From contig NW_022985246.1 of assembly GCF_010093535.1 (NCBI RefSeq), positions 13,819 to 77,818 on the forward strand: DNA of 64,000 nucleotides. Direction: 5' to 3'. Below the pieces are notes generated by a model that ran no database searches, was not told the origin of the DNA, and was given only the letters and a program-made list of their open reading frames with translations. Below, in pieces: positions 1,699 through 22,385 of the stretch (positions are counted from its first letter, which is position 1; each line of letters begins with the position of its first letter). Both the position numbers and the translations under genes were made by a program. The DNA comes from Lindgomyces ingoldianus. Taxonomy: Eukaryota; Ascomycota; Dothideomycetes; Pleosporales; Lindgomycetaceae.

Positions 1699-3312
1699 CT
1701 ACAGTCTAGTGGATTCTGCTTGCAGCTTCCTACGGAATACCTCGGGCTGCACCATCGGATCGCAATGCCATTGTAGACTTTCCACCCCCCTTGCACCCAA
1801 ATGAAAACTTACTAAGCGTGTATGATAGTCAGAGACAGGAAACATCGCCCGGTCACAAACCTCTCGGTTCCTGTTTGCTTCCCAGTAAAATGTGTCCCTG
1901 TCGTACGGAAGAAGATCATAGGTCGTAAGAGAATGGCTTTGCACATATACACGTAGACCAGCCTTCATCGAAATGATGTCCAGTACAAAGTTCCCCATTG
2001 CGTTGCTATATCTTCCGGAGTAGGCGGCAAATGGTAGTGTAGGCAAGCGCTCAGTCTTGTTGGCGCAGAGGTACCTAGACAGATGTTCATACCAAGCCAT
2101 CTGTGTCTGTTTCGCGGTCTTTGCGAGAGGTAAGAACGAAGGGAAGCTCCTAGATCCCAGTAAGGTCCCAAGAAGAAGCTGCGCGCTGAAGTCCGTCGCA
2201 TCCATGAACGGTGTCGCGTTGGACAGGCAGACAACGCAGCTCTGGGTCTCGGTCTCCAGGAACATGCTGTGAAAATAGCCAGGAATATTACCCGTATGGT
2301 GAAATATCTTAGTTCCGGGGAGGTCAATACCGAAGGTAGGGGCGCTTCTGCGCAAGAGAGATGCGTTGAGACTAGCGCAGGACAAGTTCCCAGGGAGGAT
2401 GGTACGATATACACCAAGACAGTAAGCTTGGGACGAAGTTGGAACGTTCCTCCGGAGTTGGATGTGTGGTTCAAAAATTAAGCGAAGGTAAGTGAAAGGC
2501 AATCCTGGAGTAGTGTCGACATTATTCTCTTTCTGATGTGCGTATGCTGAGAGTATCGCGGAGTAGATGGTTAACATCTCCCGAAGAGTACTTTTACCGC
2601 CCATCACTGCGGTCAGGCCTGTATCAGATGAAAATGGGCATATTGGAGTTCTTGTAACACCTCCATCATCATGCACGGCGTGTGGATATGCAATGTTCGA
2701 TCCTTCAAGGCCTTCAAGAGTAGTTTGGTGCAAGCCAAGCGGATCAAATAGCTTTTCCCTCATCGTTTGCCCAAAAGGCTTTCCAGTGACAGTCTCAATG
2801 ACCGCTTGGATAAGAATATAATTCCAAGGCGAGTAGATGAAAGATCTCCGAAACGGTTTGGAAGCTTGTATGACCGTGGATAGAGACACAAGGTCATTCT
2901 TTGGGGTTAGAATATCTCCATTCTGCTGTCCCCAGAAGAAATCCGAACTAGACAGCCCGGTTCTGTTAGACGCAACGTCACATAGAGTTGCATTCACGCC
3001 CATCTCATCGGAACGACTTCGTAATGTGTGTAGGTATTCGCGGATCGGAGTTTCCCATGTCAACAATCCTTCGGCGACCAAGATCCCAATAAGGCAAGTC
3101 GTTAGAACCTTAGTGAGTGAAGCGATGTGATATAACGTATCATCCTGCGGCGCCTTTCCGGTCGATATATCGCGCTGTCCGAGATGTTTGGTGTGAATGA
3201 TTTGGCCACGGTGAAGGACTCCAATGGACATGCCAGGTACGCCGCTGATGCGCATGATCTCACGAATGGTGTCCGTTTGAGCCTCTAAGCGTAACGCAGG
3301 ACCGGGTGTCAT
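1699..3312 (-). CDS. Beta-lactamase/transesterase-like serine hydrolase (class C PBP-like fold)
   Basis: An intronless 537-residue frame. The frame stays open further upstream to 3435 but has no ATG there, so I take the ATG at 3312. Residues 65-68 read SLTK, the SxxK motif with the nucleophilic serine and general-base lysine of the beta-lactamase family (PF00144). An HTG motif (HHTGNIPG), the counterpart of KTG, lies in the C-terminal half. The region of the second motif reads YSPWNY where relatives usually have Y-S/N-N-W-x-Y, so the tyrosine is kept but the asparagine appears to be proline. Fungal members near polyketide synthases can act as acyltransferases or hydrolases that offload or trim products (LovD is one). 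It is divergent from the PKS with about 600 bp between starts, which suggests shared control. Family is confident; substrate is unknown. Confidence 0.85.
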   Translation of the reverse strand: MTPGPALRLEAQTDTIREIMRISGVPGMSIGVLHRGQIIHTKHLGQRDISTGKAPQDDTLYHIASLTKVLTTCLIGILVAEGLLTWETPIREYLHTLRSRSDEMGVNATLCDVASNRTGLSSSDFFWGQQNGDILTPKNDLVSLSTVIQASKPFRRSFIYSPWNYILIQAVIETVTGKPFGQTMREKLFDPLGLHQTTLEGLEGSNIAYPHAVHDDGGVTRTPICPFSSDTGLTAVMGGKSTLREMLTIYSAILSAYAHQKENNVDTTPGLPFTYLRLIFEPHIQLRRNVPTSSQAYCLGVYRTILPGNLSCASLNASLLRRSAPTFGIDLPGTKIFHHTGNIPGYFHSMFLETETQSCVVCLSNATPFMDATDFSAQLLLGTLLGSRSFPSFLPLAKTAKQTQMAWYEHLSRYLCANKTERLPTLPFAAYSGRYSNAMGNFVLDIISMKAGLRVYVQSHSLTTYDLLPYDRDTFYWEANRNREVCDRAMFPVSDYHTRLVSFHLGARGVESLQWHCDPMVQPEVFRRKLQAESTRL

Positions 3313-3910
3313 GTTGGCAACGTTGTTGGGACGGAAAGTTGTTATGTCGGCTAGAGAAGCCCATATTAGGCCATCAGGAGGTTCATGAGGTCTTTTGTGC
3401 TGTGCCGCAATATAAGCGAACTCTATTACAAGCAAAGATCATGGGTTTAACGACAAGGGTCCCTTGCTTTTACCGCGTGTACCTCCTAGATAATGCGCAC
3501 AGATCGACTGCTCGGGCTTCACCTCAACAATACCTGTCGCCACTGCGCCACCTTACGGATACTGTATGCAAGACACTGTTGTTGCAAGACGCCTGAGGGA
3601 ATTTTTGTTAAGAAACGTGTGTTGTCACTCTGCGCCATAGACAATCGACAGTGTCCTTCGTCTAGCTCTAGGCGTACCTAAACTTTATAGGAAGCTGCTC
3701 ATTCTTTGAATCTTGCAACCTCAATTGACTTCTCGAGGACATTTGTGTTCCCCAAAACAGCCATCATTTCCCCTACAAAAATTGAACCATGCCACCGGCC
3801 TGAACGGAAGTGTGTCACACACCCAAGAATATCCTGCGGGTATTGACCATAAGAGTGTTGACCACAGGAGTGCTGACCACAAGAATGTTGACTGCAACGA
3901 AAAATTTGGC
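3313..3910. promoter_or_regulatory. Divergent intergenic region between hydrolase and PKS
   Basis: About 600 bp separates the two divergent starts and should hold both promoters. The PKS reading frame is open from about 3710 but contains no ATG before 3911, so its true start could lie upstream behind an undetected intron. No operator site can be named from the sequence alone. Confidence 0.5.
3845..3889 (+). repeat. Three tandem 15-bp units
   Basis: Three imperfect copies of a 15-mer beginning GACCA. In the PKS frame they would encode a DHKSV-like pentapeptide three times, just upstream of the first in-frame ATG. Whether they are translated depends on the unresolved PKS start. Confidence 0.7.
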
Positions 3911-6900
3911 ATGGGTCTACACTCGTCTACCAATGGACTCAATGGCCTGGAGCCAACTCAATGCCACGCCGCCGGCAACCATGCGGCGAATCAATCTATA
4001 AAAGAGAGAAACACTGGTACCCCATTCGCAGGAGACCAGGCTAGCATTCCAGAACCCCTCGCAATCATCGGGATTGCCTTCCAGTTTCCAGGTGGTGTAA
4101 CCACGGAAGGTGGTTTTTGGGAGATGTTGGTGGAGAAGACCTGCATGTCGAGTGAATATCCTTTGGAAAGGATGAATGTCAAGTGTTTTTTCGATCCTTC
4201 TGGGAAAAAACAAAACACAGTAAGGCCTTTTGCGCGTATAGATGATATGTGCATTTAACGGAGCAGGTTCATACGAAACGAGCTCATTTTCTCAAAGATG
4301 ACATCTACCATTTCGATGCTCCATTCTTTTCCATCTCATCCAGCGATGCAACGGCTATGGATCCGTGTCAACGAACTCTAATGGAAACAACATACCGTGC
4401 CCTTGAGAGCGCAGGCTTGACGCTTCAGTCTGTATCTGGGACAAACACTTCTGTTCACGTTGGTTGCTTCTCTAGTGACTACATGCTCTCTGCTTTCAGA
4501 GACCCGCAAGACATCCAGAAGTACTCCGCTACGGGTGTATCGAGTGCTTTGCTATCCAACAGGCTCAGTTGGTTCTTCAATCTTCAGGGACCAAGCTTGA
4601 CGGTTGATACGGCCTGCTCTAGCGGCATGGTCGCGCTCGATCTCGCCTGCCAGGGCCTTTGGAGTGGTCAAAGCGATATTGCTATAATCGCGGCTTCAAA
4701 CTTGATATTATCACCTGAGATTAACATCTCGTTGAGTAACATGAATTTTTTATCCCCGGATGGTCGCTGCTTCAGCTTCGATCATCGAGCAAATGGGTAT
4801 GCCAGAGGTGAAGGGGTTGCGACATTAGTGGTGACACCTCTTTCCAAAGCACTAGCCATCGGAGTTCCCATTCGAGCACTCATTCGTTCAGTGTGTACAA
4901 ATCAGGACGGACGGACAACTGGTGGCATAACTCAGCCGAGCCAGAACATGCAAGCGGCCCTGATTCGCGAGACTTACCGAAGGGCAAACTTAGACATGGC
5001 CCATACGCGATTCTTCGAGGCCCACGGAACCGGGACTGCGATTGGCGACCCGACAGAGGCAAACGCGATAGGAGAGTGCTTTCGTTCGCATCGATCAGGG
5101 TGTGAGCCCCTTCATGTTGGGGCTCTCAAGTCAAATATTGGACACCTGGAAGGCACCAGTGGGCTAGCTGGGATTATCAAAGCTGTCCTTGCCATTGAGC
5201 GAGCTACCATACCTCCGAATACGAATTTTGAACGCCTAAATCCCGAGATTGATGGCGAGTTCCTCAGGGTTCACTTTCCTCAAGAATCCATACCCTGGCC
5301 AAATTCTGGCGCTATTAGAAGGGCATCTATCAATTCCTTTGGATTTGGGGGGGCAAACGCGCATGTTGTTCTCGATGATGTGCAATCCTACCTCCAGAGG
5401 ACCAGGCTTGACGGAACTAGAACTCTCGGCAACGTCGCTATCGATTCGACTGTTGCGTTGAAGGATACGTTGGGAAATGGAGCCCACAATTTCACGCCTC
5501 ATCTCCTTATTTTCTCGGCCGCCGATAAAACAGGTATATCCCGCCAAACTGAAGCCCACAAGAGATTTCTTGAGGATTTCGGATTAGATTATACCTCAGA
5601 TTTTTTTGCCAACTACTCCTTCACTCTTGCCACAGGCCGCACTGGACATGCCTGGAGGGCTTTCCATGTTCTGAGGTCGCCAAATCAGTTCGCCGAAGTC
5701 ACTGACCTCACCCCAATCAAATCACCCCGACAGGCTTCCAAGATGAATCTTGGCGCAATTTTCACGGGTCAAGGGGCTCAGTGGCTAGGAATGGGTAAAG
5801 AACTGCTCAAGAGCAATGCCTTTCTCCAAAGTGTCCAGAAATCTGAGGAATGTCTCGCAGCTTTGGGGTATATGCGGTCCCTCGTCGAGTTCCTTGATGC
5901 TGAGACGGACGCCTCTATTCTCACTCAGGCTCGATTCAGCCAGGTTCTAACAACTGTCATTCAGATAGCCTTAGTCGACCTAATAGAATGGCTCGAAATC
6001 GCCCCAAGAGTTGTGGTTGGCCATTCTTCCGGGGAAATAGCGGCTGCCTATGCAGCTGGGCATATTTGTCGCTATGACGCCGTCAAAGTGGCTTATTACA
6101 GAGGTCTCCTTGGGTCCAGGCTGGAAGAGAACGGGGGACCCAGATATGCAATGGCCGCTGTCGGGTTGTCGAAGGAGCGAGTTCTGGAAGAGCTGGAAAT
6201 GATACATCAAGAATATGGTCAAAGTGAACGAAGAAGCCAGCTTGTAGTAAGTTGCATCAACAGTCCTTCTAATGTTACCCTTTCGGGTCCAGAGGCAGAG
6301 GTCGAGTCACTCGTCGCACGATTAACCTCACGGGCTATCTTTGCGCGGAGACTCAAGGTCAACCTCGGCTACCATTCACCACAGATGGCTTGTATTAGTG
6401 ATGAATACCAGGCGCTTATCGGCAAGATGAAGACTCGACCGAAAGGTGGTATGACTCGGCCTCTGATGATTTCTTCAATTACTGGTGAACCCATCGACCG
6501 CGATACTGTATGCACAAGCAAGTACTGGACGCAGAATATGGTATCTCCAGTCGACTTTCTGAGCGCCATACGATCGTGCGGTTCTTCGAATATCTCCGAT
6601 ACGAAGTCTCTCGGAGTTGGAAAAGTCACTGTGCCACAAATCCATGCATGGCTAGAGATTGGACCTCATGCGGCTCTGAGAGGGCCGGTTCGAGAGATCT
6701 TGACTCTTTTATCGGCGGAAACGGACATTGTGTATACTTCGGTTCTTTTGCGCTACCAATCTGCACTCTCGACTATGATGTCCGCTGCAGGATATCTGCA
6801 TTGTCATCACATTCCCATGAATCTTGGGCGGGTTACTGGTCTAGGCCTTCGTCCGGAGGTCATGAATTCCCGAACCATCTTACCCAATTTACCCCCATAT

Positions 6901-9900
6901 CAGTTCAACCACAGTATCAAGTATCTAGAAGACTCGCTTGTGGACTCAAATTTCAGAAACCGACAGCATGGTCCACATGATCTACTCGGACTCCGCGTAG
7001 GAGACTCAAACCCATACGAGGCAGAGTGGAGGCTCATCATTAGGGCAAATGAAATGCCATGGATAAGGGACCACAAAGTCAATGGCTCCATCTTGTATCC
7101 TGCATCTGGGATGCTGAGCATGGCAATTGAAGCAACCAAGCAGCTTCATTCGGCGGCCCCCCCTACAGCATTTCTCTTGGAGGATGTTGAGATTCCTTCG
7201 CCAATATTTGTTGCCAGCCCGGAGGGAAAGGTGGAAGTTCGTATTCACATGTCTACCCAGGACAAGCAATCGGGAGTCCATGACTTTCGCATATTCGTCT
7301 TGAAACCGAGCAACGACTATGAGGTCGTATGTTATGGCAGAGTACAAGCTGAGTACGAGCAACCACCATCTGATGTTGACAGCGGCCGAGAACGGTCTCA
7401 GAAGGCTGCTAGTGTGGCCCAGCAGCATGAAAGCACCATGAAAGCATGCTCACACCCAGTGGTACACGAATGGTATCAGACTATTCAGGAGACTACGGGA
7501 CTGGAATATGGGCCAGCATTCCAAAGGCTAATCACTGTTCGGTCTGACAACTCCAGAAACGCGACTGCAATCTTGACGCCATACGATGTCGAGGCAAGCA
7601 CACAGTACGTAGTTCACCCTGCTGTTCTTGACGCCACCTTCCAAATCTGTTTCGCTACATTTGGCGCTGGGCTGAAATCCGTCACGATGGTACCAACCCG
7701 TATTGCCAGGCTTTGGCTTCTCTTGCATGAGCTGAGGAGGGGGCATATGGCAAACGACTCGACAAGGGAGCGAGATCCAAACAAGGTGGATTGAACGAGT
7801 GTATTGTAAGGTCTGAGGAGCTCGATAGAGCTCTGAGCTGACTATATACTGTACGAGATAGGAGCTATGCCTAATGAGTGAATAGTGCAGTACATGGGTA
7901 TGATATCGCGTGAGACACGTGCGACAGCTTCCAGTCTCAGGGTTGGCTCATTCTAACCAGTCAGATGCGAGAGAGAGGGTAACTGCGTCTGCAGAGAACG
8001 TGTTCCAACATCACGCCTCCTTTAACATCAAGGTAATTAGCGAGCAAAGCGGTCTGACTTTGCGGCTCGAAGTCGACGGGCTCGAACTTACAGCTATATC
8101 CAGTAGACAAGAGAATCCTAGAACTCTATGCGAAGCAAGAAACCTATGCAGTCACATCGAATGGGATGTCGACCTGGATATGCTTGAAAATAGTGAAGTT
8201 CAAACTTACTGCGAAGATGTCAGAGCGACAACTACACCATTTCCTGCTACCTTTTCCGAAAGCCTGACTAAGATTTCGATACAATTTGGGAGAGAAGCTC
8301 TCCGTCTGGTCGGCAACGACGACATCTGCCTTTCCATGCGCAAGTATGCGGATTGGCTTCGTCGCCGCATTATCGAGTTGAGTCCTCAATTTGAGGAGCT
8401 TACACCAGACCAGCTGCATCTGGAGATCGAAAATGTACTTCCAAGCGTCCGAGCGGACCTACACATCACGATAGGAAAGCAAATGCACTTGCTGCTCCAA
8501 GGAATTGTCGACCCACTCGAACTATTATTCAGAGACCAAGGGAGGATGGATGCATTCTACGCCGAAGCAATGCAGGACTCATCGTACTTGAAGCCCTTTT
8601 CGCGGTTCTTGGAAAGTATCACCCATAAGACTCCGAATTTGAGGTTTCTCGAAATTGGTGCTGGCACTGGCGGGACAACGAGAGAAGTCTTGAAAGCAAT
8701 TGGTGATAACGATAGAGGAATTGCATTCGAGGACTATACATTTACCGACATTAGCCCTTCTTTTCTCCAGAAGGCTAGAGAGACCTTTTCGGGGCAACTT
8801 AAAATGTCATACAAGGTCTTGAACATTGAGAAGGATCCCAAACCACAGGGCTTCGAATCCTCGGCGTATGATGTCGTTCTAGCAGACAATATACTTCATG
8901 CCACAATGAACCTGACAGATACACTTGCAAATGTGAGCAAGCTCTTGAAGCCTGGGGGAAAGCTCATCTTGCGAGAGTTGACGGCCCCAGAGAGGCTACT
9001 AACGGGGTACGTCTTCGGACTTCTACCAGGATGGTGGCGCTCATCCGAACGAGAGAGACAAGATAGTCCGTGCCTTAATATCAGCATTTGGGATCAGCAG
9101 CTCCGAAATTCTGGCTTTTCTGGTGCGGATATTATCCTACGGGATCACCTCGATGAACCCTATAACCCACAGTGTACTTTCATCATCACAACGGCAACCG
9201 AAGCACACTATGATGCAGTTGAGTCGCAGATTCAAGTCTCTCCCATATTTGTTGCCAACCAATTATCTAGTGCTCTCAAAGAGCAGGCGTCTCTGGTTGC
9301 CAGTCATATCTCTCTTCGGGAAAGCCCCCAGACTTCCAGTCTCATTGACATATCTGATCTCGTTGAACGCCAGCCCCAACGACACAACATTATCTTGTTC
9401 GATGACCATGAAAATTCCATTCTGGGTAATCTGGGTGAGACCGAATTTCATTCACAGAAACAGCTGCTCGCTTACTCTCGGAGTCTTCTTTGGGTTAAAC
9501 CGTATGGCTTTCACAATGCATCTGGAACGCTCCAGCTTGCGATGAGCGATGGTTTGTGTCGTGTAAGCAGGTACGAATACATCAAACCTACCCTTGTAAG
9601 CCTGTCGCTTGAAGGGGCCCTAGACTCTTCCCGTTCGAAGCATGTCGTCAAATTATTTGCTGTCATCCAGGAACACATGCAACGAAGAAGCTCTGAGGTG
9701 GAGCCGGAATACGCAGAGATAAAGGGCCGACTTTGCGTCAACCGAATCAGAACGGCGAGAGTTCTCGACGAGCACGTCTTCAGGCGCACCGCAAACCCGG
9801 TTGTCCAGCAGCGGGAGGCCTTCAGACACTCAGGATTGGTATTCGCGTCCCTGGATTACTGGATACCATGACTTACTACGAAGAAGGCCCTGTCAGCGAC

Positions 9901-12091
9901 CCTTTACCCGCTAATGAGATTGGTGTTGAGATCAAAGCGATAGGTGTCAATTACAAAGATCTGCTCGCCCTTCTAGGTCGTGCCAAGTCTGATGACTTGG
10001 GCTGTGAATATTCTGGTATCGTTCGTAGTGTCGGCAAATCCGTCACTAATATCAAGATTGGAGACCGCGTGGCTTTGGTTGCGCTGGACAACTTCAAGAC
10101 TCACACTCGAGTTAAAGCTACCAGGGCCCATCGCATACCGGACAGAATGAGCTTCACGGAAGCTGCAGCAATCCCAACCGCTTACTGCACAACATACTAT
10201 GCACTTGTTCACGTGGCACGTCTTCAACCCGGGGAGACTATCCTCATCCATTCGGCAGCCGGTGGAACGGGGCAGGCTGCAGTGCAGCTGGCGCAATGGA
10301 TAGGAGCAGAAGTATTTGCTACTGTGGGTGACAACTACAAAAAGAAGCTTCTGAGAGAGGTCTACGGTATTGCCGACGACCATATTTTCTATTCTCGCGA
10401 TACTTCGTTTGCTAGCGGGATTAAGCGTATCTTACAAGATGGAATTGACGTGGTACTGAATTCGCTCCCGGGAACCTTGCTGGAGGCATCCTGGGATTGC
10501 ATCGCGCCTTTCGGTCGATTCGTAGAAATTGGGTTGAAGGATGCCTTCTTAGGGCACAATCTACCCATGGACGTCTTCCTGAAAAATGTTTCATTTTCTT
10601 CAGTGGATATGAGTTTGATCGCAAAACGGAAAGGAGAACTCTGTAAGCAAATGCTGGGGGAAGTGTTCAACCTATTCGACCAGCAGAAGCTGAGTGTCGG
10701 CAATCCTCTTCACATATACCCTCTTGGAGAGATCGAGCAGGCATTTCGCTTCCTTCAGAGTGGAAAAAGCTCAGGGAAATTAGTAGTGGAAGTTGACAGT
10801 GACGAGGTTGTTCCCGTAGGCTTATCAACACCTCCAGGTTCTTCAATGGTATACTAATGACCCGCCAGGTTACCCAAGGGCCCCATTCTCCTTACCAACT
10901 ATCTGAGAATGCAACGTATATCATCTCGGGAGGCCTGGGAGCCATAGGTCTCGCGATTGCTCGTTGGCTCGTTCAGAGGGGAGCGAAACACATGATACTC
11001 CTCTCTCGAACCGGCGGCGACACGAACTCCTCCGCTATGGGTTTCATGGACCAGATGCGCGATATCGGCGTCGAGGTCTATTCACCATCATGCGATATTA
11101 CAAATCTGGGGACACTAAAGTCTACCTTAGCTCGTTTTGCGAAAAGGATGCCACCAGTCAGAGGATGCATCCAAGCTGCAATGGTTCTGCGAGTAAGTTG
11201 GAGCCGTTCGGCATTGACATTTTCAGGCTCTAACTGGGCTAGGACGCAACGCTTTCTAGCATGAGTCTGGACGAGTGGACCCAGGCGATCCGTCCAAAAG
11301 TGGAGGGTTCCTGGAATCTCCATCTTACGATGCCTGCTGGCATGGACTTTTTCGTGATGTTGTCGTCCTGCGCTGGTGTATTTGGAAACGGAGGCCAAGC
11401 CAACTACGCTGCTGGTAACACTTATCAGGACGCTCTCGCAGCCTACCGGGCTAGGATTGGGGAGAAAGCAGTATCGCTCGATATAGGGTATGTTCTCGAA
11501 AACGGTGTGGTTGCCAATACCAAAGCGGGAACAGACCGCTTGACCAACTTGCATACGCTACGTCGGACAACGATTCCAGAAATATGTGCATTGTTGGACA
11601 TCTACTGCCAACCAGGAACCATCGGATATCGACTAGAAAGCCAGGTAGTCTTGGGTTTTGAGATACCCGCGGACATCATGGCCAAGGGTGAAGAGGTCGA
11701 ACAATTCATGAAAAAACCAATGTTTCGCCACATGTTTAATCTACAATCCATGGACACTCCGCATGCAGTTTCATCCAACCGAGGGAAGACATTGGGGTTG
11801 GCCCTCAGCGAGGCGACCACCCCGGAAGGGGCGACTCGCATTGTCTCAATGGCGCTAGCTGAGAAGGTGGGAAGAATGATGGGAATTGATGGGGAACAGA
11901 TTGACGTCCATCATTCGCTGGTCGCATATGGAATCGATTCTCTTATTGGATTGGAATTAAATAATTGGCTGCTGAAAGAGACGGGAGTGGATGTTCCCGT
12001 CTTGGACCTTTTAGGCGGCGCATCCCTGGAAAATATCGCAGTAGGTATTGCGCAGAAAAGGAAATCGGAGTCAACGCCAACGAAAGCATGA
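3911..12091 (+). pseudogene. Highly reducing type I polyketide synthase, interrupted by a solo LTR and a frameshift
   Basis: Domain order is KS-AT-DH-MT-ER-KR-ACP. KS has DTACSS (4606-4623), EAHGTGT and a KSNIGHLEG motif. AT has GHSSG (about 6019). DH has the HxxxG histidine (about 7072) and HPAVLDATFQ. The C-methyltransferase has EIGAGTGGTTRE (about 8653). ER spans about 9850-10815. KR has GGLGAIG (about 10930) and an ACP GIDSL serine lies near 11939. Introns: 4220-4266, 10816-10868 (TACTAAT branch) and 11193-11242, all with matching phase. Two lesions: a 206-bp LTR at 7721-7926 between the two DH motifs and the MT, and a one-base shift between about 9800 and 9830. Without them the gene would encode about 2600 residues, normal for this class. 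The start at 3911 is the first in-frame ATG. As it stands it can make only a KS-AT-partial DH product ending at 7794. Confidence 0.9.
7721..7926 (-). mobile_element. 206-bp solo copia LTR inside the PKS gene
   Basis: It is flanked on both sides by GCTTC (7716-7720 and 7927-7931), a perfect 5-bp target duplication. On the minus strand it begins TGTCGCACG and ends GCAAGA. It matches the 3' LTR at 22179-22385 along its length, in opposite orientation. The 211 added bases (LTR plus one TSD copy) equal 1 modulo 3, exactly the frame change between the PKS frame before and after it. It is less AT-rich than the RIP-altered elements, so it looks young. Confidence 0.92.
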
Positions 12092-12780: not shown

Positions 12781-13320
12781 TAGAGAGACAAAGACAGCTA
12801 AAAGTAGTCTAGCTAGGTAACTAAAAGTAGATAACAGCTATTTAAAGCATTAATACTATAAAGTAGACTATTTTACTTTTTATTATTTTTTAAACTAGTA
12901 TAAAAAAAACTTACTTTAAAATTAAGTTATTATAGTTTTTAAATGTAGTTAGACTACTAATTAGCTTAGTTTAGACTAGTTAAAGCACTTTAATGTGTAT
13001 ATAAAAAAGTATACTATTAGCAGCTACTATGTACTATTTATTAATAGCTATAGTTAATTATAAGCTTTAAAATGTTTTTTTAAAGAAGTTAACTTTATTC
13101 TTTATATATAACTTAAAGACTTTACTAAACTAAGCTTTACTAAAAGCATAGCTACTATTAATAAATTAAATATTTTAAAAAAATAAAGTAAAATACAGTG
13201 TTAATAATATACTACTACACTTATGTAAACTACTACTAAAATGTCTAGCTAGTATTATACCTTTATATTAAGCTTTATAAAAGACTTTACTAAACCTACT
13301 ACTATTACTTTTAAAACTTT

Positions 13321-13737
13321 TGTCGCGTACAGCTATCTGTCTATATATATCCTTCTGCTGTGCTAGCTAGAAGGTTAACCTTTTAGCAAACGCAACAGTT
13401 ATAAGCCTAGTTTACAGCATAGTGTAGATAGTTAGCGCTTAAAAATTTGTGCACCCCTACTCTACTAATAGAATTGCATTATCCCTAAGCACTGTGTGTT
13501 TAATTCCTACGCTTAGCAAAGAGCATTTAGGCAGTGCGTCTATTACAGAGGCTACCTTACTAGATCTGTCTCTAAGTTCTGTTGCTTAGGCTGGAAGGGT
13601 GTGTTAAGGTTGTTTTACTATGTTTTACCTCTCTTGTTCCACAGTTTAAGCTGGGGGGTGTGTCGCGTACAGCTATCTGTCTATATATATCCTTCTGCTG
13701 TGCTAGCTAGGAGGTTGACCTTTTAGCAAACGCAACA
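13321..13737 (+). mobile_element. TRIM: 417-bp terminal-repeat retrotransposon in miniature
   Basis: Two 77-bp direct terminal repeats (13321-13397 and 13661-13737) begin TGTCGCG and end GCAACA, with ACTTT duplicated on both sides. The internal 263 bp starts with GTTATAAGCC, close to the complement of the initiator-tRNA-Met anticodon arm used as primer site by copia-type elements. It ends with the polypurine tract CTGGGGGGTG. No coding capacity. The two LTRs differ by only two G/A changes, so the insertion is recent relative to its host element. Confidence 0.9.
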
Positions 13738-14379
13738 ACTTTTTATTAAAATTATCTACCTTTTATAGCTAAAACTTACTATAAAGTACACTACTACTAA
13801 TTCTTAGCTAGCTAAAAGCATGCTATAGAGATTAAATTTGTAAACTTTTATTAAGAAAAAGCATTTAAGCTAGTTTTTATTACAAAAGCTATAAATATTT
13901 AAGTATTACTCTTAAAATAAGTATATAAGTATAAGTTTAATGCTAAAGGTTTTTTAACTAAATTTCAAGCTTATTTTTATATATAAAGTAACCTTTAAGT
14001 TACTATAGCTAAAATATATGCTACTACTCTAGCAACATGTGTCTTTAAAGCGCTTATTACTATTATAGCCTTATTTAGCCTACTTAGGTAATAATACAAC
14101 GCTATTAACGTGTTTATTAACACTTAGCTTCTAACTCTAGCATATTATAAACTGCTACTAGGCTACTATTACTTTTAGTAAGCTCTTTAACTTTTTTAAG
14201 CTTTATATAAGCTTAAAAATATACCTAAACTTTAGTATTTAAAGCTTACTAAGTTACTTAAAAAGCTTAGCTTTTTTACGTTTTTAAAGTTAATTATTTT
14301 TTTACTAGTTAATAAAAAGCTTATAGTTTACCTTTATATTAATAATATTATTATTTTTTACTTTATAAAAAGTACTTAA

Positions 14380-20751: not shown

Positions 20752-21117
20752 CTTAAACTAATTTTAAAATTAAGCTATAAAAGAACTAAACTAGTTTCTT
20801 CGCATCTAAATTAACTATAATACAGTTAACTACACTATATAGCTTAGTTAAGAGTTATATATTAAGTAGCTTACTACCTACTTTAATTTTAATACTAGTT
20901 ACATATATTTTTATCTAATTACTATATTAAATATATTAGCACTACTTTTATAGCTTAATTAGATTACTAAAATAAATGTATAAAATATTATAGTATACTA
21001 GCAGCGCATTAGCTTTATTAGCTATGCTGCTACTACTATTAAACTTAATATTACTAAAGCTAATTTAAAGCTCTTTAAATACCTAGCTAACTCTTTAAAT
21101 AAATACTAAAAGGCTAC

Positions 21118-21447
21118 TGTTAGATTGAAGCACTGTTTCTAGGCTTCCTAAGATGAATGATGGGTTTGGATATGATGTATAGGATGATCATCGATTGTAT
21201 TGATTATTTGATCCTTTTTCTGCTCTGCTCGTGTTGCTCGGCTTTTGTTTTTCCGGTCCGAGTCCCTCGCGCACTAGCCCTATGCGCGACCAGCTTGCAA
21301 CATGCTGCAATTTGCTGCAACATGCTGCAATTTGCTGCAACATGCTGCAATTTGCAGCAACATACTGTTCGAGCTTATTGCTTGTACTATGTAGCAGCTT
21401 TCGTCCAGCGTTCCTCATGTCTTGACAGTAGGTGCGCATATCTGACA
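21118..21447 (+). mobile_element. Solo LTR (330 bp) with short 10-bp minisatellite
   Basis: It begins TGTTAGATT and ends ATCTGACA, with GCTAC duplicated at 21113-21117 and 21448-21452. It is homologous to 37894-38424, but its internal minisatellite (21294-21363) has only seven 10-bp units. TG...CA ends and a 5-bp duplication fit a solo LTR better than a MITE. Confidence 0.85.
21294..21363 (+). repeat. 10-bp minisatellite, seven units
   Basis: Units alternate GCTGCAACAT and GCTGCAATTT. Open frames running through it on either strand are artefacts of the repeat. Confidence 0.9.
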
Positions 21448-22178
21448 GCTACTTAGTATATAATTAAGTACTTTTGTAGCATTAAAGACTATACACTTTA
21501 GTACTTAAAAACTTTTACTTACTTATTATAAAAACTTATCTTTTATAGCGCATTAAATGCTGCTTATAGTAATAATAAAGCTAGTTACTATAGCTTTTAT
21601 AGCATACTATTTACACTATTTAGTACAGCTATTAATTGAAAGGCCTTCTTATAGTGCTTAGTTACTAAATTAATAACTAAAGTAAAGCTTTTAGCTTTCT
21701 TTTATTCTACTAGCTACTTATAACAGTAGAAGTAATTTTTTATAAATATAAACTACAACACTAAAAAAAAGATTACTTTACTATATAATAATTAATAAAC
21801 TATATAAGCTATAGTAAAAGACTTAAAGCTTAATAATAAGCTTAAGCATGGTAACATTTACAACTACTAGCTCTGCTAAGAGGTACAGAAAAGAAGGATT
21901 TATATATGCTAGATCCCTACTACAGACATGCTAGCTAAAAGCCTTACTAAGTTTTTACTTTAATAAAAGCATTAAGTATTTATTAAATAACTAGGCTTTA
22001 TCTACTTAAGTAATACTTTAAAAGCTTACTTTACTAATATTAGCTTAAAAACTTAAGCTTACTAACTTTTTTTTCTTTTAGCTATTTTATACTTTTAAGT
22101 GCACTACTGTATACTTATAGTCTATTTATTTTTATATAGCTTTGCTTTAGTATTTACTTTATTAAAGCTAGGAGGGTG

Positions 22179-22385
22179 TGTTGCACGTGTCTCACGCAAT
22201 GTTATACCCATGTACTGCACTATTCACTTATTAGGCATAGCTCCTTTCTCGTACAGTATATAGTCAGCCCAGAGCTCTATTGATCTCCTTAGACCTTACA
22301 ATACACTTGTGCAGTCCACTTTGTTTGGATCTTAGTACCTTGTTGATTCGCTTACTATATGTAACCCTTCTCAGCTCATGCAAGA
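22179..22385 (+). mobile_element. 3' LTR (207 bp) of the copia element, abutting the P450 remnant
   Basis: It begins TGTTGCACG right after the polypurine tract and ends GCAAGA. It is the same LTR family as the solo copy inside the PKS (7721-7926). The P450 coding sequence starts at the very next base, 22386, so this element is what cut that gene. Confidence 0.9.

Follow-up and report, generated by a model that had tools for sequence, protein, structure and literature searches.

A solo LTR interrupts a highly reducing PKS gene of Lindgomyces ingoldianus within its DH-coding exon

What broke the reading frame of a highly reducing PKS gene in the middle of its DH-coding exon, and does the gene still make its product? 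The question arises in Lindgomyces ingoldianus, a freshwater saprobe and member of the Pleosporales, whose genome is assembled as 68.4 Mb in 99 contigs. An RPB2 fragment from contig C15 has 100% identity to the RPB2 of this species, whereas the right-hand PKS piece had a best match of 36% identity and did not point to a species. We analysed one stretch of 64,000 nt from this assembly (contig C85, 13819-77818), referred to here as the window; coordinates given without a contig or locus name are positions in it.

The exon is interrupted by a solo LTR, and the sequence on both of its flanks is PKS coding sequence. The LTR is 206 bp long, occupies positions 7721-7926 and lies antisense to the PKS, on the minus strand. 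Its ends were fixed by comparison with the other copies in the genome. Read directly from the sequence, the 5-bp string GCTTC stands immediately to the left (7716-7720) and again, identically, to the right (7927-7931), as a target-site duplication. The earlier note had claimed a solo LTR of 206 bp bounded by a perfect duplication of GCTTC, and that description proved exact, as did its proposal that a gain of 211 bp accounts for the loss of frame. The LTR and one copy of the duplication add 206 + 5 = 211 bp, which is 1 modulo 3. For this reason the two ORFs differ in frame, with frame 1 used to the left (4246-7794) and frame 2 to the right (7904-9871). Read from the left, the PKS frame continues through approximately 24 LTR-coded residues before it is terminated by an in-frame TGA within the LTR, on the plus strand at 7792-7794.

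The gene around the insertion was characterized with Pfam, using the separate ORF pieces, and has the domain order KS-AT-DH-MT-ER-KR-ACP of a highly reducing PKS. All parts are on the plus strand. The exon to the left of the insertion (4267-7715) encodes most of the KS, the AT and most of the DH, with matches to ketoacyl-synt, Acyl_transf_1, PKS_DH_N and PS-DH. To the right (7932-9802) are the remaining part of the DH, the methyltransferase (Methyltransf_12 and others) and a Rossmann-type pseudo-KR; an NAD-bd_HRPKS_sdrA match in this piece fell below its cut-off. The ER, KR and ACP are encoded at 9830-12088 (ADH_zinc_N_2, KR and PP-binding), a part that contains two proposed native introns. 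Native introns were placed where a frame change coincides with GT..AG ends. Those at 4220-4266 (47 nt, GTAAGG...CAG) and 11193-11242 (50 nt, GTAAGT...TAG) are common to the public gene model. The one proposed at 10816-10868 (53 nt, GTAGGC...CAG) is replaced in that model by an ER/KR intron at 10760-10806, which is possibly misplaced. A divergent ORF of the beta-lactamase family (Beta-lactamase, DUF3471) lies beside the PKS on the minus strand, at 1702-3438.

The junction was then compared with PKS homologues. The set comprised 120 of 5376 proteins, among the matches listed, and was reduced to 119 when the model from the same species was dropped; some of its proteins do not have the length of a complete PKS, and it contains two other Lindgomyces PKSs. 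Both flanking pieces align with 118 of the 119. The alignments reach close to the junction in 107, and the other 12 were excluded from the junction count. In most of the 118 homologues, homology to the left piece ends with residue 1158, that is, at the duplication. For the 107 with alignments near the junction, homology to the right piece resumes between its residues 2 and 57. The number of extra residues at this point has a median of -2 and a range of -10 to +10 among the 107, and a separate set of homologues (n = 38) gave a median of -2 and a range of -9 to +8. The LTR would give approximately 69 extra residues, whereas a segment of at least 30 was present in none of the 107. The earlier note had named orthologues carrying the same segment as coding sequence as the observation that would speak against it, and no such homologue occurs among these 107. 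The nearest PKS relatives among the matches listed are those of Sporormia fimetaria (M011DRAFT_413522), Karstenula rhodostoma and Kalmusia sp., with 56-58% identity over the KS-AT-DH piece. Like the L. ingoldianus PKS, they have the full HR-PKS domain set; unlike it, they are without the LTR segment at the junction.

These comparisons bear on the simplest alternative, that the segment is part of the normal coding sequence or was inserted into the DH domain in this lineage alone. The left frame does run on through the first 24 or so codons of the segment, as such a reading would have it. The homologue count is against it, and a plain coding insertion is ruled out by the in-frame stop and by identical or near-identical copies elsewhere in the genome; we regard this alternative as vanishingly improbable. 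An inserted LTR is the reading we carry forward, and those other copies were examined for the nature of the unit.

A search of the L. ingoldianus genome with the 206-bp unit returned 41 matches from 40 scored of 231 candidates, all with at least 96% identity except for one 67-base piece at 82%. For the census, the best 40 of the 231 candidates were combined with the second copy in the window to give 41 long copies, which represent the most similar copies and not the whole family; two short fragments were dropped, and 400-bp flanks were fetched. The alignment covers the full 206 bases in 40 of the 41, including the PKS copy. A 34-bp LTR end is found at 171 places in the 68.4-Mb genome when up to three mismatches are allowed (78 + 93, with 100 of the 171 among the matches listed), compared with none for a reversed control. 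Seventeen of the 41 long copies, again including the one in the PKS, have no interior and a perfect 5-bp duplication, and are solo. Outside the census, two more solo copies were seen to have a duplication. The polypurine-tract side is attached in 11 of the 41, where the LTR is adjoined by the complement of a tract rich in G (mostly GGGGGGTG), and the primer-site side is attached in 9, which continue into CTCATAAC. The last four copies (4 of 41, or 4 of the 21 without interior) have neither an interior nor a perfect duplication. Five LTR copies lie no more than about 130 bp from the ends of their contigs (C40, C66, C71, C80 and C94), so assembly breaks may fall within this LTR family.

The 17 copies that stand alone with a 5-bp duplication would also suit a short element in its own right, MITE-like or introner-like, as opposed to an LTR left behind by recombination. 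However, 20 of the 41 copies adjoin an interior, and direct pairs of the unit share their duplication. By eye, in the printed flanks, a common 5-bp duplication was seen for pairs at C25:55785-67700 (GAGGC), C3:239213-260133 (GCCAC) and C33:740772-744190 (GATTC). Three more pairs seen by eye share TATAC (contig C25, with one LTR diverged), CTTAG (C66) and GATTG (C68, a locus with Ns inside). As direct pairs around an interior share a 5-bp duplication, the 206-bp unit is an LTR. The PKS copy has its own perfect duplication and no interior, and its sequence also occurs as paired terminal repeats, in six pairs; both features are those of a solo LTR. Together with the reverse transcriptase found inside, the paired copies largely refute a MITE or introner unit, and we consider a stand-alone element very unlikely. 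The C25 and C3 copies each contain foreign stretches in their interiors that the other does not have; the C33 copy is a derivative that has been shortened.

The parent of the solo LTR was classified from these longer copies. Orientation was set by the primer-site and polypurine-tract sides of the copies with interior and by the strand of RVT_2, the Copia-type reverse transcriptase, relative to the LTR. In the element's own sense, which is the minus strand in the window, the LTR reads TGTCGCAC...CATGCAAGA. RVT_2 was detected in the X-masked C25 copy with an E value of 7.5e-10 and 39.3 bits, above the cut-off of 31.6; a shorter overlapping piece of C25 gave 27.5 bits, below that cut-off. It was also detected in the C68 copy, beside its LTR, with an E value of 1.7e-30 and 4 stops. 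This copy can be aligned with the elements at C25 and C33, and it has the same LTR at 99%. The domain lies approximately 0.9-1.6 kb from the true 3' LTR. A weak SH3_retrovirus match (E 0.013, below its cut-off) is located upstream of RVT_2, and an integrase core was not found in the three element pieces scanned. The 5-bp target duplication of Ty1/Copia elements is present in 17 of the 41 copies, as solo LTRs, and in six pairs. Ty1/Copia LTR ends are typically TG...CA, a feature that is not defining. In the 40 of 41 copies with an end-to-end alignment, the LTR of this family starts with TG (or TG after RIP-type changes) and finishes with GA, and thus has TG...GA instead. Judged by its reverse transcriptase and duplication length, the parent is a Copia-type LTR retrotransposon.

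The sequence adjoining the true 5' LTR, CCGGGCTCATAAC, is complementary to 13 contiguous bases of a tRNA-Met, nt 26-38 in the anticodon arm. The matching tRNA-Met is the sole genomic site with an initiator-like pattern, and we take it to be the initiator by its resemblance to the yeast initiator tRNA. The full 13-base match is found in 7 of the 9 loci with a primer-site junction, with one or two bases different in the remaining two. At locus L025 4455-4484, and at others, the primer site is complementary to the 5' half of tRNA-Met. The longer element string GACTCCGGGCTCATAAC does not occur in the genome with any base but T after it. The complementarity to tRNA-Met suggests that its 5' half may prime the element. 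Half-tRNA priming is a feature of Drosophila copia, which likewise has, adjoining its 5' LTR, a sequence that can pair with the 5' half of tRNA-Met as far as the anticodon loop, and a Copia-type reverse transcriptase. It differs from the family described here, in which the host is a fungus, the LTR is TG...GA, priming is read from sequence only and 2 of 9 loci deviate.

Two groups of Copia elements from filamentous ascomycetes, FunCo1 and GalEa, can also be compared. FunCo1 likewise matches an internal tRNA region with its primer site, although the tRNA is tRNA-Lys and not the tRNA-Met of the Lindgomyces family (PMC5445492). For the fungal GalEa elements, the same paper gives a conserved hairpin in place of a primer site and a palindrome of 9 bp at the end of the 5' LTR, CTGATCAGT or CTAATTAGT in 85% of families (PMC5445492). 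The Lindgomyces family, by contrast, has a primer-site match, and its string at this position is GTTATGAGCC.

The earlier note's picture of a recent loss in a nearly intact gene, with working alleles possibly surviving in other isolates, is only partly supported, and it overstates how intact the rest of the gene is. Both the ORF frames and the homologue alignment place a second frame change, from frame 2 to frame 1 on the plus strand, in the linker before the ER at approximately 9803-9829. Against 106 homologues, this break has a median of +2.3 residues and a range of -12.7 to +14.3, with 8 negative values, which argues against a uniform small loss. Among the five nearest homologues, compared by hand, those of Kalmusia, Periconia and Mytilinidion (P0235, P0236 and P0237) each gave +0.3. 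The values for P0233 (-2.7) and P0234 (+6.3) are unreliable, as the two alignments overlap there. An intron at 9803-9829 was considered and rejected: the homologues abut the site almost without a gap on either side, so that aligned residues would be lost to any intron of usual size, and there is no apparent room for one. We read the second break either as an assembly error or as a small net loss relative to three of the five nearest homologues. The frame change suggests further, independent decay of the PKS, a sign that loses value if the break is an assembly error. Unless it is one, the PKS is probably a pseudogene with two lesions.

A gene with an LTR in its exon might still make PKS if the LTR were spliced out, as a new intron or within one. 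GT/AG pairs spanning the LTR number 144, of which 51 have a length that restores the frame (1 modulo 3). The top three of these reach a crude score of 10, the same as two of the three native introns (10, 10 and 12). These three are 367-436 nt long, start at 7605 and would remove DH coding sequence. No GT dinucleotide occurs in 7716-7726, so that the left LTR edge offers no start for a splice pair. The deposited model, BDR25DRAFT_363876 (window 3344-12088), would also seem to favour splicing, in that it is a single continuous protein of 2748 aa. However, mapped to the window, it crosses the LTR on the plus strand by three introns of 43, 35 and 25 nt (7786-7828, 7851-7885 and 7910-7934), compared with 47, 53 and 50 nt for the proposed native introns, and it retains approximately 38 LTR-coded residues. 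It bridges the second frame break by an intron of 23 nt (9761-9783). Elsewhere the model has introns of 24, 33 and 36 nt, and its N-terminus overlaps the divergent neighbouring ORF. We take these tiny introns, including the three at the LTR, to be artefacts of gene prediction. An automatic annotation that invents an intron at the LTR had been predicted, and the public model contains three of them. Splicing that removes the LTR and preserves the PKS seems very unlikely, on both the missing left-edge GT and the intron lengths of the model. The chance is just as small that the LTR is turning into a new intron or exon, with cryptic splicing that gives a PKS of altered DH, either shortened or with LTR-coded sequence, as the single protein of the deposited model would imply.

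The reading we prefer is insertion followed by loss of the gene. A Copia-type retrotransposon would have integrated into the DH-coding exon of the highly reducing PKS, duplicating GCTTC, and recombination between its two LTRs would have removed the interior and left the single 206-bp LTR; we infer that the events occurred in this order. The gain of 211 bp shifts the frame, and the LTR supplies the stop. As the shifted frame and the stop end the readable product in the DH, without MT, ER, KR and ACP, the PKS would be a pseudogene, and its function is presumed from the sequence to be lost. We consider this account as a whole, from Copia integration and LTR recombination to frame shift, stop and pseudogene, to be very probable (approximately 0.94). 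A solo LTR in a PKS exon is an ordinary kind of gene loss, in this case with clean junctions. The insertion had been called recent; the identity of the PKS-inserted LTR to two other copies over 206 bp weakly favours that view but sets only a loose upper age.

The LTR and the interiors of this family differ in RIP-type damage. Three interior stretches from two elements have RIP indices of 1.64-1.99 and 0.55-0.97, for which the published limits are above 0.89 and below 1.03 (PMC3562529). Between the C33 and C25 interiors, 2051 columns show 223 transitions and 20 transversions, and the LTR pairs differ by 0 (C33), 4 (C25) and 3 (C3) bases. All three interior stretches measured show RIP-type damage, whereas the 206-bp LTR is without it. 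RIP is said in the same paper to need duplications of more than 400 bp (PMC3562529). The solo LTR, at 206 bp, is shorter than this 400-bp threshold, and the LTRs within elements are likewise spared. A shortened element at locus L025 1276-4686 has two identical LTRs (0 differences) and a RIP-damaged interior. By alignment, the window also contains the RIP-eroded relic of a sibling element on the plus strand at 20765-22385, made up of its true 3' LTR (22179-22385, 87% identical) and the adjoining interior. Further pieces of this relic were aligned at 13044-13321 and 13739-14354, starting approximately 1 kb downstream of the PKS. In another Dothideomycete, Mycosphaerella fijiensis, LTR elements likewise show RIP-type damage by the same indices (PMC3562529). 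The two fungi differ in that no complete TE copy is reported to have been found in a silenced gene or intron of M. fijiensis (PMC3562529), whereas the Lindgomyces solo LTR is inside an exon.

Flanks of other solo LTRs were examined for disrupted genes. Among the 19 solo loci examined, the PKS locus is the only one at which both fetched flanks are open in frame throughout. A solo LTR at C15:13892-14098 (L036 402-607) splits a gene with an NDC10_II domain. Its left side corresponds to profile positions 202-290 (E 4.5e-15) and its right side, in another frame, to positions 290-316 (E 5.9e-5, below the cut-off). At L043 4-402 and L023 3-401, solo LTRs adjoin, on one side, open frames with GPIID_WHD and DDE_3 transposase domains (Pfam). 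Among the papers listed in literature searches, no report of this solo-LTR disruption of the PKS was found, which is not proof that none has been published.

The locus provides a clear example of a solo LTR that breaks a secondary-metabolism gene, with exact junctions. It also illustrates a practical hazard, in that the deposited protein crosses the LTR and resembles a whole PKS to genome miners. As the LTR is free of RIP damage and the interiors are damaged, short solo LTRs may persist in genes, and may be the persisting part of a silenced family in the genes of RIP-active fungi.
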